This document shows, in pieces, positions 11,207-17,224 of a DNA stretch of 25,081 bases. Source of the stretch: a virus. The stretch covers positions 1 to 25,081 of IMG/VR virus record IMGVR_UViG_3300030107_003679, one strand, 5' to 3'. The notes under the pieces were generated by a model that had not been told where the DNA came from, ran no database searches, and saw nothing but the letters and a program-made list of their open reading frames with translations. Position numbers and translations under genes: made by a program. Every line of letters begins with the position of its first letter. Positions within the stretch are counted from its first letter, which is position 1.

Positions 11207-12115
11207 ATGGCTATAAATAGAGCACAATTAGCGAAAGAATTAGAACCTGGTTTAAACGCCTTATTTGGCATGGAGTATAACCGATACGACAACGAGCATG
11301 CAGAAATCTTTGATACTGAAACTTCAGATAGAGCATTCGAAGAAGAGGTAATGATTGTTGGATTTGGTAATGCACCAGTTAAACCAGAGGGAGAAGGAGT
11401 TTCCTTTGATAATACAAATGAAGGTTTTACAGCAAGATACGAGCATGAAACAGTTGCTCTAGCTTTTGCGTTAACCGAAGAAGCTGTTGAAGACAACTTG
11501 TACGACAGACTTGGTTCAAGATATACCAAAGCATTAGCTAGAAGTATGGCTAACACCAAGCAGATCAAAGCTGCAAGTATTCTTAATAATGCTTTTTCAT
11601 CTTCATTTGCAGGCGGAGATGGTCAACCTTTAGTTTCAACTGCACACCCACTTTCAAGTGGTGCAAGTGGAGCTAACAGAGCGGCTACTTTTGCTGACTT
11701 GAATGAAACTTCATTAGAAGATGCACTTATCAGAATATCTACTCAAACTGATGACAGAGGATTAGCAATAGCGTTGCAAGGACAAAAACTTATTGTTCCA
11801 CCGCAACTACAATTTGTTGCTGATAGACTTCTTAATTCACCAGGTAGAGTTGGTACTTCAGATAACGATATCAACTCCATCAATAATCAAGGTATGCTTC
11901 CAGATGGTTATGTAGTTAACCACTACTTAAATGATCCAGATGCTTACTTTATCAAGACAGATGTACCTGATGGTTTCAAACATTTTGTTAGAAGCCCTAT
12001 GGCAACATCACTTGAGGGTGATTTTGATACAGGAAACATGAGATACAAAGCTAGAGAGAGATACTCATTCGGGTTCTCAAACTGGAGATGTATTGACGCT
12101 TCGCAAGGAGCATAA
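11207..12115 (+). CDS. Major capsid protein (HK97-fold, Mu gpT-like)
   Basis: Predicted coat protein of the icosahedral head. The 302 residues have the layout of gpT-like capsid proteins: helical N-terminus with 'ELEPGLNALFGMEYNRY', a spine-helix region around 'YTKALARSMANTKQIKAA', a 'QPLVSTAHPL' segment near residue 140 and a 'PPQLQFVADRLLNSP' segment typical of the family, then a C-terminal 'MRYKARERYSFGFSNWR'. It has the strongest ribosome binding site of its block (AAGGAG), it follows the scaffold and decoration genes, and an intrinsic terminator comes directly after it. These fit a highly expressed coat gene. Confidence 0.87.
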   Translation: MAINRAQLAKELEPGLNALFGMEYNRYDNEHAEIFDTETSDRAFEEEVMIVGFGNAPVKPEGEGVSFDNTNEGFTARYEHETVALAFALTEEAVEDNLYDRLGSRYTKALARSMANTKQIKAASILNNAFSSSFAGGDGQPLVSTAHPLSSGASGANRAATFADLNETSLEDALIRISTQTDDRGLAIALQGQKLIVPPQLQFVADRLLNSPGRVGTSDNDINSINNQGMLPDGYVVNHYLNDPDAYFIKTDVPDGFKHFVRSPMATSLEGDFDTGNMRYKARERYSFGFSNWRCIDASQGA

Positions 12116-12969: not shown

Positions 12970-13373
12970 TGGCAGATGCAGTAACTTCACAAACTATTCA
13001 AGACGGCCAAAGAAAGGCCGTCATGAAGTTCACTAATGTTTCAGATGGAACTGGTGAAAGTGCTGTTGCTAAAGTAGATGTCTCAGCATTACAAAAAAAT
13101 GCAAACGGTGACTCTTGCACAAGTGTTACTATCCAAAGAATATACTGGGCCTGTCGTGGTATGGGTGTAGATTTATTATTCGATGCTACTTCTAATGTTT
13201 TAATTACAGGTTTACCAGCAGATAGTACAGGTGACGAGTACTACGATAATTTTACTGGTATACCAAATAATGCAGGAAGCGGTAAAACTGGAGATATTCT
13301 CTTTACAACAGTAGGCCATTCTTCAGGCGATACATACTCTATAATATTAGAGCTTGTAAAAGAGTATGGCTAA
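12969..13373 (+). CDS. Conserved phage protein, 134 aa, probable virion component
   Basis: Beta-rich, neutral to acidic protein with 'QDGQRKAVMKFTNVSDGTGES', 'VTIQRIYWACRGMGVDLLFDAT' and a C-terminal 'DTYSIILELVKEYG'. I recognise the general pattern from marine phage contigs, where it sits between capsid and connector genes; no function is established. Its ATG overlaps the stop of the previous gene and its end overlaps the next gene by 8 bases, so it is part of a tightly coupled operon. Confidence 0.6.
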   Translation: MADAVTSQTIQDGQRKAVMKFTNVSDGTGESAVAKVDVSALQKNANGDSCTSVTIQRIYWACRGMGVDLLFDATSNVLITGLPADSTGDEYYDNFTGIPNNAGSGKTGDILFTTVGHSSGDTYSIILELVKEYG

Positions 13374-13650
13374 AAATATAAAAAGAACAGTAGGTCGTGG
13401 TGGTAACTATCGACCTACTAAATCTGGTGCTGGCATGACCAAAAAAGGTGTAGCAGCATACAGAAGAAAAAACCCAGGATCTAAGCTGAAAACAGCTGTA
13501 ACGGGTAAGGTAAAGCCAGGAAGTAAGGCAGCAAAAAGAAGAAAATCTTATTGTGCTAGATCTCTTGGTCAATTAAAACGAAGCTCTGCTAAAACTAGAA
13601 ATAATCCTAACTCTAGAATTAGGCAGGCTCGCAGGCGCTGGAGGTGCTAA
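13366..13650 (+). CDS. Very basic small viral protein (RRKSxCARS…WRC type)
   Basis: The 94-residue protein is extremely rich in Lys and Arg. It carries 'MTKKGVAAYRRKNPGSKL', 'TAVTGKVKPGSKAAKRRKS', 'YCARSLGQL' and a C-terminal 'ARRRWRC'. This set of motifs recurs in small uncharacterised proteins of marine phages and giant viruses. The charge suggests nucleic-acid binding, possibly packaging with the genome; the conserved Cys residues near 'CARS' and at the C-terminus could pair or bind metal. Both are inference. It starts inside the previous gene (8-base overlap) and opens a run of basic genes. Confidence 0.7.
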   Translation: MAKNIKRTVGRGGNYRPTKSGAGMTKKGVAAYRRKNPGSKLKTAVTGKVKPGSKAAKRRKSYCARSLGQLKRSSAKTRNNPNSRIRQARRRWRC

Positions 13651-13651
13651 T

Positions 13652-13882
13652 ATGAGCTTTTGGGAAAAAGTTGGAAATTGGTTTGGCTGGGTCAAGGTCA
13701 GAGCACGTGATGAAGATGGTCGATATATCGCAGATGATAAATCGACAGCAAAGAATGAAGCCTATACAATGGTACATAAAGATTTGGTTGCTAAACCGAA
13801 ACCTAAACGTAAATACAAAAAACGCAAAAAGGTAGAGGAAGTTTCAAAGAAATCTAAAAATACTAAAAGGAAGAAAAAATAA
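13652..13882 (+). CDS. Small protein with a Lys/Arg-rich tail, 76 aa
   Basis: Residues 1-45 form a small domain with several aromatics (MSFWEKVGNWFGWVKVRA). Residues 46-76 are almost all Lys with some Pro, Arg and Ser (KPKPKRKYKKRKK and KRKKK at the end), a histone-tail-like composition. No family recognised. It is one of at least five consecutive or near-consecutive basic proteins here. Its stop overlaps the next ATG (TAATG, 13880-13884). A DNA- or RNA-binding or genome-condensing role is inference from charge. Confidence 0.65.
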   Translation: MSFWEKVGNWFGWVKVRARDEDGRYIADDKSTAKNEAYTMVHKDLVAKPKPKRKYKKRKKVEEVSKKSKNTKRKKK

Positions 13883-14241
13883 TGGCAATTTCTTATACAT
13901 GGGATGTATCAACCGTTGATACATATCCTACACACTCAGATGGTAGTAACACTAAATCAGATGTAATTTATAACGTACATTGGCGTTTAAAAGCTGTGGA
14001 TGATACCAATAAAGATGCTGACGGTAATAATCATACAGCAGAGACTTATGGTTCACAAAGTTTAGATGTGTCAGATCACACCAGCTTCAAAGCTTTTGCT
14101 AACGTGAAACAAGCCGATGTCCAAGCTTGGGTCGAAGCAGCAATAGGCTCTACTGAAGTTGCTAGTATGAAATCAGGTTTAGATGCTCAAATTACAGAAA
14201 AAATTACACCAACTTCTGTAGTCAAAACCATAAGTAGTTAA
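13882..14241 (+). CDS. Conserved phage protein, 119 aa
   Basis: Begins 'MAISYTWDVSTVDTYP', continues with a beta-rich middle ('VIYNVHWRLKAVDDTNKDAD') and ends with a helical part containing 'VKQADVQAWVEAAIG' and 'LDAQITEKITPTSV'. I recognise the arrangement from a widespread small phage/cyanophage protein whose function is unknown. In contrast to its neighbours it is neutral to acidic. A GTG start for the nuclease gene follows immediately after its stop. It may be a minor virion component. Confidence 0.6.
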   Translation: MAISYTWDVSTVDTYPTHSDGSNTKSDVIYNVHWRLKAVDDTNKDADGNNHTAETYGSQSLDVSDHTSFKAFANVKQADVQAWVEAAIGSTEVASMKSGLDAQITEKITPTSVVKTISS

Positions 14242-14664
14242 GTGTACGAATATAAATGCGAGGTAACTCGTGTGGTCGATGGGGATACAATAGATTGTGT
14301 CCTCGACCTCGGCTTCAGTATTTTACATAAATGTCGTGTTAGACTTTATGGTATAGATACCCCAGAATCTAGAACTCGTAATTTAGACGAAAAAGCCAGA
14401 GGCAAACTAGCCTCTAAGTTCTTAGAGGATTCAATAAAAAATGGAAAAGAAGTAATTTTACGAAGTGAGCTGAAGGACTCTAAAGGTAAATACGGTAGAG
14501 TCTTAGGATCTATAGTGGTAGATGATTTAGACATCAATCAAGCTATGGTGGCACAAAATTTAGCCGTCAAATATTTCGGCCAAAGCAAAGCTGATGTTGA
14601 AGCCGAACACATGTTAAACAGACAAAAGTTAATTGACTCAGGTGCTTATGTACCCGATTTATAA
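14242..14664 (+). CDS. Staphylococcal-nuclease (thermonuclease) family enzyme
   Basis: Predicted Ca2+-dependent phosphodiesterase of the SNase/OB-fold family acting on DNA or RNA. All key residues are present: D15 (in VVDGDTID), R34 and D39-T40 (in RVRLYGIDTPES), catalytic E42 and R86 (in GKYGRVLG), matching D21, R35, D40-T41, E43 and R87 of the S. aureus enzyme. The 140 residues are a complete single domain. No signal peptide is seen, so it should act inside the cell or be packaged. It starts with GTG directly after the previous stop and its 3' end overlaps the SET-domain gene. Its role could be host DNA degradation or genome processing; placement among structural genes is unusual. Confidence 0.9.
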   Translation: MYEYKCEVTRVVDGDTIDCVLDLGFSILHKCRVRLYGIDTPESRTRNLDEKARGKLASKFLEDSIKNGKEVILRSELKDSKGKYGRVLGSIVVDDLDINQAMVAQNLAVKYFGQSKADVEAEHMLNRQKLIDSGAYVPDL

Positions 14665-14983
14665 TAAATTTTATTACAAACCCCTACCTGATTGTTTAGA
14701 AGTAAAAGAAAGCCCTATAGAGGGTCTAGGTCTATTTGCTAAAACTAACATAAAAAAACATTTTGATTGTGGTATGTCACATCTTAAGGTGCCTATTATT
14801 TGTGGTTTTGTTAGAACTTCTATAGGTGGTTTTCTGAACCATTCTGAAAAACCAAATTGTGCTTTATCTTTGGAGTTGGATTGGGACGATTATAAGGTAT
14901 ATAATGTTTTTACGATAAAAAAAATTAAAGCTGGTGAAGAACTAACTTTAGATTATCATGCAGACGGTTTAAATTATGGCTAA
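14648..14983 (+). CDS. Compact SET-domain protein (putative protein-lysine methyltransferase)
   Basis: With the ATG start the protein is 111 residues, the size of minimal viral SET proteins such as chlorovirus vSET. The three SET motifs are in order: GLGLFA at residues 26-31 (S-adenosylmethionine-binding N-terminal motif), FLNHSEKPN at 62-70 (the knot motif, usually 'NHS..PN') and GEELTLDY at 96-103 with the catalytic tyrosine. There is no pre-SET or post-SET Cys cluster. A TTG at 14633 would add five residues but has no advantage. It overlaps the nuclease gene by 17 bases and the next, lysine-rich, gene by 8. The substrate is unknown; the neighbouring basic proteins are candidates (inference). 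Confidence 0.85.
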   Translation: MYPIYNKFYYKPLPDCLEVKESPIEGLGLFAKTNIKKHFDCGMSHLKVPIICGFVRTSIGGFLNHSEKPNCALSLELDWDDYKVYNVFTIKKIKAGEELTLDYHADGLNYG

Positions 14984-15308
14984 AAAGAAGGTAAATAAAA
15001 TAATCAAAGGTCTTAAAAAAGCTAGTAAGACACATGCTAAACAAGCTAAAACTTTAGAAAGTTTAAAGTTAAAAAAAGGTGGTAAAGTAAAGAGTAAGGG
15101 TAAAATATGTCCTGAAGGTAAAGCTTGGGCCAAAAGAACTTTTGATGTTTATCCAAGCGCCTATGCTAATTTAGCAGCATCCAAATATTGTAAAGACCCA
15201 AACTACGCTAAGAAAGCAAAAGGCGGTAAACGTAAAGGTAAAGCTAAAGGCGGTCTTGTATCCAAAGTTAGAGGTCAAGGCAGAGTGATGTCTGACAGAT
15301 TAAGATGA
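14976..15308 (+). CDS. Lysine-rich viral protein with CPxGKAWAKR…YPSAYAN motif
   Basis: The 110-residue, strongly basic protein has a Lys/Ala-rich helical N-terminus (1-40), then a small conserved domain 'ICPEGKAWAKRTFDVYPSAY' followed by a second cysteine in 'SKYCKDP', seen in small phage proteins of unknown function. A Lys/Gly-rich linker (KAKGGKRKGKAKGG) and a C-terminal 'GQGRVMSDRLR' follow. The C-terminal motif is shared with the next gene product. Two cysteines could bind metal. It overlaps the SET-domain gene (8 bases) and the following gene (4 bases), so the three are probably made together. Confidence 0.7.
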   Translation: MAKKKVNKIIKGLKKASKTHAKQAKTLESLKLKKGGKVKSKGKICPEGKAWAKRTFDVYPSAYANLAASKYCKDPNYAKKAKGGKRKGKAKGGLVSKVRGQGRVMSDRLR

Positions 15309-15619
15309 GCAAAGGACAACTACAGTCTTGGTTAGATGAAGAATGGGTCCGTATGGATGCTAAAGGCAATATTATTGGGTCCTGTGGTGGCAGAAAAAAA
15401 GCAGAGGGTAAACCTAGATGTTTACCTAAGAAAAAAGCACAAGGTATGTCAAAAGAAGCTAGAGCCAAAATAGTACAAAGAAAAAGAAGAAAAGACCCAA
15501 ACCCTGATAGAAAAGGTAAACCGATTAATGTTTCTACAAAGTTGAAAAAAGGTGGTTTTATAGCAAAGGGTTGTGGTAAAGTAATGAGTAACCGTAGGAA
15601 GGTTACTACAATAAGTTAG
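15305..15619 (+). CDS. Basic viral protein with GSCGGRKK…CLP motif, 104 aa
   Basis: Starts with a short acidic/aromatic part 'LQSWLDEEWVRMDAKGNIIG', then a conserved 'CGGRKKAEGKPRCLPKKKAQ' segment with two cysteines, then a Lys/Arg-rich helix (KEARAKIVQRKRRKDPNP) and a C-terminal 'GCGKVMSNRRKVTTIS'. The 'W-V-R … CGG … RCLP.KKA' layout resembles small uncharacterised proteins of phages and giant viruses (possibly the DUF5872-like group; not verified). It overlaps the preceding gene by 4 bases. Charge and company suggest nucleic-acid association. Confidence 0.65.
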   Translation: MSKGQLQSWLDEEWVRMDAKGNIIGSCGGRKKAEGKPRCLPKKKAQGMSKEARAKIVQRKRRKDPNPDRKGKPINVSTKLKKGGFIAKGCGKVMSNRRKVTTIS

Positions 15620-15627
15620 GAGTATTA

Positions 15628-15876
15628 ATGCCAGGTCATTACAAAAAAAGCAAAAACGGTAGCATGATGAAAAAATCTAAGGGCGGAAAAATTATGAAGA
15701 AGTCCAAAGGTGGTATGATGATGAAGAAATCGAAAGGTGGCTCCATCATGAAAAAATCAAAAGGCGGCATGATGATGAAAAAGTCCAAGGGTGGCAGAAT
15801 CATGAAAAAGTCTAAAGGTGGTTCAATCATGAAAGCTGGAAATGCAGCTAGAAGAAGAGCAAGATATAGTAGATAG
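15628..15876 (+). CDS. MKKSKGG tandem-repeat protein, 82 aa
   Basis: Almost the whole protein consists of a nine-residue unit, MKKSKGG followed by two variable residues (KI, MM, SI, MM, RI, SI), in six full copies from residue 14 to 67, preceded by a degenerate copy (KKSKNGSM) and followed by an Arg-rich tail (RRRARYSR). About half of the residues are Lys, Arg or Met. No family function is known to me. The composition resembles histone H1-like or protamine-like DNA-condensing proteins, and each repeat offers lysines to the nearby SET enzyme (inference). The AGGAG site supports the ATG. Its stop overlaps the GTG of the next gene. Confidence 0.7.
   Translation: MPGHYKKSKNGSMMKKSKGGKIMKKSKGGMMMKKSKGGSIMKKSKGGMMMKKSKGGRIMKKSKGGSIMKAGNAARRRARYSR
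15667..15828 (+). repeat. Six 27-bp in-frame tandem repeats
   Basis: Units start at 15667, 15694, 15721, 15748, 15775 and 15802. They differ mostly at synonymous third positions while the MKKSKGG amino acids stay fixed, which indicates selection on the protein rather than recent slippage. This is a coding repeat, not CRISPR. Confidence 0.9.
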
Positions 15877-16550
15877 TGCCTAATTTAATAAGTAATATCC
15901 CACATTTCAAATGTTGGGTAAGAAGAGAATTTACCCATAACCACGAAAAATATCACGATGAATATATACATGCTTTAGCTATAGCTGTTAATACTATTCC
16001 TGACAGATCTTTAAGTTTTCAAGTAGTTTTTACAGGCGAAGAAGCTAATTGCGAAGATAACGATGAACCTAACATACACGGTGGTGCTATGTGGGCTCGT
16101 ATGCCTATACAAGGTATGGTTGCTGATATACCTATGGAAGATTTTCCTGATCCTATGGAAGATCATTTAGCACAACCTTGGGACTGTGAATCAAGAGATC
16201 ATAGTGTTGTAGTTATGGACAGAGTTAGCTCCTCACCTTGGTTAGCTAAGATAGATGGAGATTTTTACCAAGCCAAATATTTATTTACAGTTGATTACAC
16301 AAATAACTCTATTGCAGATGACCCTGCACAACACAAACAATCTCATGTATTATATATAACAGAAGATTGTAATTGGAAAGGTAATTTAGTTGCTTTACCT
16401 AACAATAGAGTAAGAGCTACAAGCCCTGCTTTATGGGTGACTGGCGAAGGTGCTCCGGACTTTAAACCGTCTCAATGGGCACATTCTGCTGAGGGTCATG
16501 AAAGTTATTTAGATCCTGCAATTACATTTAATAATTTATATGAGGACTAA
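15876..16550 (+). CDS. Conserved phage protein, 224 aa, function unknown
   Basis: The protein opens 'MPNLISNIPHFKCWVRREF' and carries several conserved-looking stretches: 'DRSLSFQVVFTGEEANCED', 'GGAMWARMPIQGMVADIP' and 'PWDCESRDHSVVVMDRV'. It is rich in Trp, His and acidic residues, with no membrane segment. I recognise it as a recurrent protein of marine podovirus-like contigs lying before the tail adaptor genes, and know of no assigned function. It starts with GTG overlapping the TAG of the repeat gene. A virion or connector role is a position-based guess. Confidence 0.65.
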   Translation: MPNLISNIPHFKCWVRREFTHNHEKYHDEYIHALAIAVNTIPDRSLSFQVVFTGEEANCEDNDEPNIHGGAMWARMPIQGMVADIPMEDFPDPMEDHLAQPWDCESRDHSVVVMDRVSSSPWLAKIDGDFYQAKYLFTVDYTNNSIADDPAQHKQSHVLYITEDCNWKGNLVALPNNRVRATSPALWVTGEGAPDFKPSQWAHSAEGHESYLDPAITFNNLYED

Positions 16551-16552
16551 AA

Positions 16553-17224
16553 ATGGCAACATCAGGCAGTACAAACTTTGAGCCAGATATTACAGAGTTT
16601 GTCGAAGAAGCATATGAAAGATGTGGTTTAGAACTACGTACTGGATATGATCTTAAAACTGCTATTAGATCTGCTAATCTTATGTTGGCCGAGTGGGCAA
16701 ACAGAGGTTTGAATCAATGGACTATCGAAACCGGTACACAAACTGTTACACAAAGCACAAATAGTTATAGTTTAGGAACAGATGTTATAGATATTTTAGA
16801 CGTAACTATTAGGCGTACAGAAGCTGGTGTTACAACTGATATACGTTTGGATAAACTTTCTAGATCAGAGTTTTTTAATATACCAAACAAAGCAACAGAA
16901 TCTAAACCATCACAATATTTTTTAGATAAACAAAATAATCCAACACTTTTTTTATATCCAACTCCAGAAAACTCTACAGATATAATACGGTTCAACAAGC
17001 TTACTAGGATGGATGATGTGGACGATCCAAAAAATACTTTAGATATGCCATTTAGACTATTTCCTTGTTTTGTTGCAGGACTAGCTTATTACATAAGTAT
17101 TAAAAAGAATCCACAATTAACTGCACAATTAAAAAGTATTTACGAAGAAGAGTTTAGAAGAGCGGCTGATCAAGACGAAGATCGTGCTTCTTTCAGAGTA
17201 AGACCTTCTATAAGGATGAGATAA
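16553..17224 (+). CDS. Head-tail adaptor, P22 gp4-like
   Basis: Predicted connector that binds below the portal and closes the head after packaging. The 223-residue product has a helical N-terminus ('ITEFVEEAYERCGLELRTGY … AIRSANLMLAEWANRGLNQW') followed by beta strands and a C-terminal helical 'FPCFVAGLAYYISIKKNPQL' segment. This matches the general layout of P22 gp4/tail accessory factor-type proteins of marine podophages. The evidence is pattern and gene order (upstream of a second adaptor and of the gp10-like gene). The fold call is moderately sure. Confidence 0.65.
   Translation: MATSGSTNFEPDITEFVEEAYERCGLELRTGYDLKTAIRSANLMLAEWANRGLNQWTIETGTQTVTQSTNSYSLGTDVIDILDVTIRRTEAGVTTDIRLDKLSRSEFFNIPNKATESKPSQYFLDKQNNPTLFLYPTPENSTDIIRFNKLTRMDDVDDPKNTLDMPFRLFPCFVAGLAYYISIKKNPQLTAQLKSIYEEEFRRAADQDEDRASFRVRPSIRMR

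Follow-up and report, generated by a model that had tools for sequence, protein, structure and literature searches.

A mini-SET gene in the variable capsid–adaptor stretch of marine podoviruses: probably an accessory methyltransferase, with basic-protein genes as a separate feature

Genes between capsid and adaptor

The window, by which we mean the whole 25,081-nucleotide stretch analysed, belongs to a 26-kb IMG/VR virus record and carries a podovirus-like structural module, with genes for the terminase large subunit, portal, a GroES-like protein, capsid and SU10-type adaptor, among others. Its terminase large subunit is 59–63% identical to those of pelagiphages HTVC023P and HTVC027P and of two other phages, and SAR11 phages are among its nearest relatives by this protein. 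The interval compared between phages was anchored on the left by the major capsid protein gene (11207–12115; phrog_371, E 9e-21) and on the right by the SU10-type adaptor gene (16553–17224; PF24175, E 2.5e-13). Both anchors, and all genes of the block between 13366 and 15876, lie on the + strand.

Within this block, an open reading frame with an ATG at 14648 (14648–14983) encodes a predicted mini-SET protein-lysine methyltransferase of 111 amino acids, assigned by PF00856, phrog_28741, AlphaFold2/Foldseek and sequence motifs. The sequence-only reading had reported that this gene overlaps a gene for a lysine-rich protein by 8 bases, and the overlap with the basic gene at 14976–15308 (phrog_27331, net charge +30) is exactly that. 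It had also counted four more very basic genes within 1.3 kb, which the net charges bear out. Two lie upstream, a DUF6321 protein (13366–13650; PF19846, 48.3 bits against a cut-off of 28.5) with a net charge of +31 and no acidic residue, and a protein of net charge +16 (13652–13882) that Pfam and PHROG searches placed in no family. The other two lie downstream: a phrog_23735 protein (15305–15619, net +22) with a C-terminal GGFIAKGCGKVMSNRRK motif, and the protein described in that reading as made of MKKSKGG repeats (15628–15876, net +29, no acidic residue), in which six exact units were found. The upstream basic genes are separated from SET by two non-basic genes that the earlier description lacked, encoding a DUF7936 protein (13882–14241; PF25590, E 7e-21) and a staphylococcal-nuclease-like endonuclease with a GTG start (14242–14664; PF00565, E 1.3e-14; phrog_452, E 1.2e-37). 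The nuclease-like gene overlaps SET by 17 bases. It is itself optional in the block, and may stand before or after SET (compare L108).

Several other features of the block were observed. In 67 fetched loci, 67 distinct and mostly basic proteins carry a motif, GGFIAKGCGKVMSxRRKxTT, that is invariably located near the C-terminus, and the product of 14976–15308 ends in a variant of it; the motif may serve as a short signal for targeting or packaging. The DUF6321 protein carries an RKS[YF]CAR core and an RRWKC-like end, and stands alone in pelagiphages. A gene for a protein of 224 amino acids (15876–16550), located between the basic genes and that for the adaptor, matches phrog_3704, which is labelled ferredoxin. 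This label is doubtful, because the protein has no Pfam match, is highly conserved (median dN/dS 0.052) and is present in most relatives.

The SET protein and its likely activity

The product of 14648–14983 had been described as a 111-residue SET protein with all three core motifs, and the open reading frame, the profile match and the motifs confirm this. A search against PF00856 gave E 3.3e-11 and 44 bits, above the curated cut-off of 22.4, and phrog_28741 was matched with E 1.4e-24. The motifs are GLGLFA, GGFLNHSEKPNC and GEELTLDY, so that both the NHSxxPN(C) and the GEEL-x-x-x-Y signatures are present within 111 residues. A weak partial match to an NCBIfam effector with a SET domain lay far below its cut-off and was disregarded.

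The protein was modelled with AlphaFold2 from a 40-sequence alignment whose rows came only from the window and the fetched loci, four rows from annotated phage records being left out; the model has a pLDDT of 87.8. Its top Foldseek match in the PDB was chlorovirus vSET (3kma, E 2.2e-6). In VIA alignments it gave Z 11.5 with vSET (rmsd 2.5 over 89 residues, 33% identity) and Z 12.3 with MLL1, and the matches from the two methods, which include vSET, MLL1, EZH2 and others, place it in the SET fold. A vSET profile matched residues 15–104 with E 1.7e-10. The SET fold covers the whole protein, which is thus a minimal SET, lacking pre- and post-SET domains.

Nineteen columns were invariant in the alignment of 29 viral sequences, and 15 remained so across 40 viral and bacterial members. 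These 15 include N64, H65, N70, E98 and Y103, positions that in SET enzymes contact SAM or provide the active-site tyrosine. Loss of the catalytic tyrosine in homologues had been named as an observation that would count against the proposed modification system; Y103 is kept in 40/40 aligned members. The 40-sequence alignment also reveals a conserved signature of the family's own, YxPLP, LGxSH and RTPLGGF. The median pairwise dN/dS of SET was 0.145, compared with 0.078 for the capsid protein and 0.107 for DUF6321, and the gene is under purifying selection. This selection, together with the invariant active-site residues, indicates that the SET protein is probably an active SAM-dependent protein-lysine methyltransferase. 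The stretch from G42 to N64 is short, and model confidence is low for the final residues, as might be expected of a methyltransferase relic or a non-catalytic binding domain, but the active-site Asn/His and Tyr show no variation among the 40 sequences and the dN/dS is low, and we regard such a loss of function as very unlikely.

SET and basic genes in related phages

The sequence-only reading proposed that SET methylates its lysine-rich neighbours, which would bind packaged or host DNA, in a chromatin-like system. The close linkage and translational overlap within the window's lineage favour this proposal, as does the composition of the basic proteins, which are lysine-rich and carry repeats; moreover vSET, the nearest structural neighbour, methylates a basic DNA-binding protein (PMC7019647). 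Three close relatives, L092, L094 and L095, argue against it. Their capsid proteins are approximately 93% identical to that of the window, and they have no SET gene: the basic gene found downstream of SET in the window comes immediately after the stop codon of the nuclease gene. The DUF6321 proteins of all three are 98–100% identical to the window's, and the MKKSKGG proteins of L092 and L094 are 100% identical to it. In the absence of the enzyme, then, two proteins proposed as its substrates are retained in identical or nearly identical form.

We compared 105 distinct loci spanning capsid to adaptor, 27 with SET and 78 without. A gene was counted as basic if it encoded at least 40 amino acids with a K+R content of at least 22% and a net charge per residue of at least 0.15. 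The loci were drawn from searches seeded with different genes, and the fractions given for the intervals are therefore not population frequencies. Intervals with SET held 2–7 basic genes (median 4, n=27) and those without held 0–7 (median 3.5, n=78), a difference with p 0.013 when interval length was unrestricted. Among intervals of 3–4.7 kb the means were 4.38 and 4.08 respectively (p 0.44); the difference thus vanishes when lengths are matched. At least one basic gene was present in 73/78 SET-less intervals, and the co-occurrence across relatives on which the chromatin-like proposal was to be judged shows no mutual dependence of SET and basic genes.

Individual gene families gave the same picture. 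No basic family was positively associated with SET over the 105 intervals, and DUF6321 occurs in intervals with or without it. The b15305 family was rarer where SET was present (20/27 intervals, against 76/78 without; p 0.0009), which also speaks against the basic proteins as dedicated substrates. Comparison was possible for three basic families, and in these the proportion K/(K+R) was the same with and without SET, giving no signal of lysine retention. A SET gene elsewhere in the genome was found in 0/15 long SET-less records (35–59 kb, possibly still fragments). When SET is mapped onto a tree of the capsid protein (94 rows, quick method), its state changes at least 12 times, and SET has been repeatedly gained or lost; seven independent pairs on this tree, a comparison of low power, showed no link between SET and a large basic array.

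One observation in favour of the chromatin-like proposal is that SET adjoins a basic gene in 24/24 capsid–adaptor cases, against 16 expected from random slots. The ferredoxin-labelled gene, however, adjoins a basic gene in 82/82 cases against 56 expected, while p12247 does so in 0/38. The excess for SET probably stems from a contiguous block that holds the SET insertion. Because the ferredoxin-labelled gene matches it and the loci are related, we give the adjacency little weight, without dismissing a real preference of SET for basic neighbours.

Many other SET genes have surroundings that lack basic genes. Enough flanking sequence was available for 52 distinct SET loci, and a basic gene lay within 1.5 kb of SET in 24/25 from the window's lineage, compared with 4/12 of the most distant viral SETs. 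The exception in the window's lineage is L023, whose SET protein is 76% identical to the window's and whose gene lies in a different module, between genes for a 2OG-Fe(II) oxygenase and a DUF3799 nuclease (L023 3518–5400); no basic gene lies within 1.5 kb of it. Other SET genes neighbour those for a UvrD helicase, DNA polymerase A (PolA), a glycosyltransferase or an aminopeptidase. By tblastn, SET was detected in four isolated or single-cell phages: P-SSM7, where it lies two genes after nrdB, P-RSM6, where it lies beside baseplate genes, pelagiphage Kolga and AG-345-P14. A DUF6321 match lies approximately 7 kb from SET in P-SSM7, and no match to DUF6321 was obtained in Kolga, P-RSM6 or AG-345-P14 (a fragment). 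Kolga, a phage of SAR11, and P-SSM7 and P-RSM6, phages of Prochlorococcus, are in culture; the cultured HTVC023P and HTVC027P yielded no match to SET. Overall, 338 phage records contained DUF6321 and 6 contained SET.

Bacterial sequences extended this range. In three flavobacterial or Bacteroidetes MAGs a mini-SET lies within an arginine-synthesis operon, argG-argC-SET-proC-argD (L351 2824–7206, also L333 and L340); the neighbours were typed in one, and the gene lengths are the same or similar in the other two. In Porticoccaceae the mini-SET gene stands beside one for a FabF-like ketoacyl synthase. Some other MAG contigs that carry a mini-SET may be phage.

Of the chromatin-like proposal, then, the SET protein with its catalytic motifs and its fold match, including that to vSET, is supported. 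A dedicated system that unites it with the basic neighbours is not supported, and we consider the proposal as first formulated unlikely. The variable capsid–adaptor stretch has its basic genes independently of SET, as a feature in their own right.

Possible targets and known systems

We consider it likely that SET is an optional accessory methyltransferase of some HTVC023P/HTVC027P-like marine podoviruses, with a non-dedicated target and separate from the basic genes. SET looks like a roaming accessory enzyme because near-identical phages keep the basic genes without SET, and other phages and bacteria carry SET without basic neighbours. Some of these podoviruses carry the gene in their variable capsid–tail-adaptor region, and its product would methylate a host protein (of translation, the nucleoid or metabolism) or another non-dedicated protein during infection. 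A host protein is a better guess for the target than a neighbouring one. Accessory status is also compatible with a SET protein that, when present, methylates lysines of the phage's own basic proteins and so adjusts their binding to the packaged or injected genome. This would be an optional virus-encoded chromatin-like modification in bacteria; we think it improbable.

A more specific form of the accessory explanation is that SET acts on a broadly conserved host protein, such as a ribosomal protein, elongation factor, chaperonin or nucleoid protein, and redirects host physiology during infection. The sequence-only reading had itself named a host ribosomal or nucleoid protein as an alternative target. 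Members of this mini-SET family are found both in unrelated phages and on bacterial chromosomes and share no neighbour, which fits a partner that is a common cellular protein. The contexts would also fit a different target in each lineage, and we put the chances of a broadly conserved host target at a little under even.

The accessory enzyme is of interest in a field, the methylation of protein lysines by bacterial viruses, that has seen little study. SET has spread over podoviruses, Kolga (a pelagiphage of another type) and T4-like cyanophages. That so small a protein is conserved, repeatedly acquired and spread over several phage types suggests that it has a useful target in marine bacteria, and the near-twin phages with and without SET offer a natural comparison for finding it.

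Among known proteins, the SET protein of the window most resembles vSET of chlorovirus PBCV-1 (A612L; PDB 1n3j, 3kma) in being a minimal single-domain viral SET. vSET is packaged in the virion, and its substrate is Lys27 of histone H3 in a eukaryotic alga (PMC7019647). The window's protein differs in belonging to a bacterial virus and in its YxPLP, LGxSH and RTPLGGF signature. Counterparts are known from phages as well: the window's protein matches phrog_28741, and a 'SET domain containing protein' of uncultured Caudovirales phages is already annotated in BFVD/UniProt. A search of one literature library on SET proteins of phages, pelagiphages and cyanophages and on DUF6321 found no paper describing them, and the main text of the HTVC023P-type phage paper mentions neither SET nor methyltransferases.

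The product of 13366–13650 is a member of the DUF6321 (PF19846) modules of cyanophages and pelagiphages, which are widespread without SET; in cyanophage Sf-FS3, DUF6321 makes up the C-terminal end of a long protein that carries a structural annotation (PV340856.1 152672–154582). The mini-SETs of Flavobacteria, Porticoccaceae, SAR86 and Saccharibacteria are equal in length to the window's protein and share its invariant columns. They differ in being apparently chromosomal, in arginine-synthesis or fatty-acid-synthase neighbourhoods without basic genes. The SET protein of the window belongs to an uncharacterised mini-SET family of marine phages and bacteria that is already represented in phage databases.
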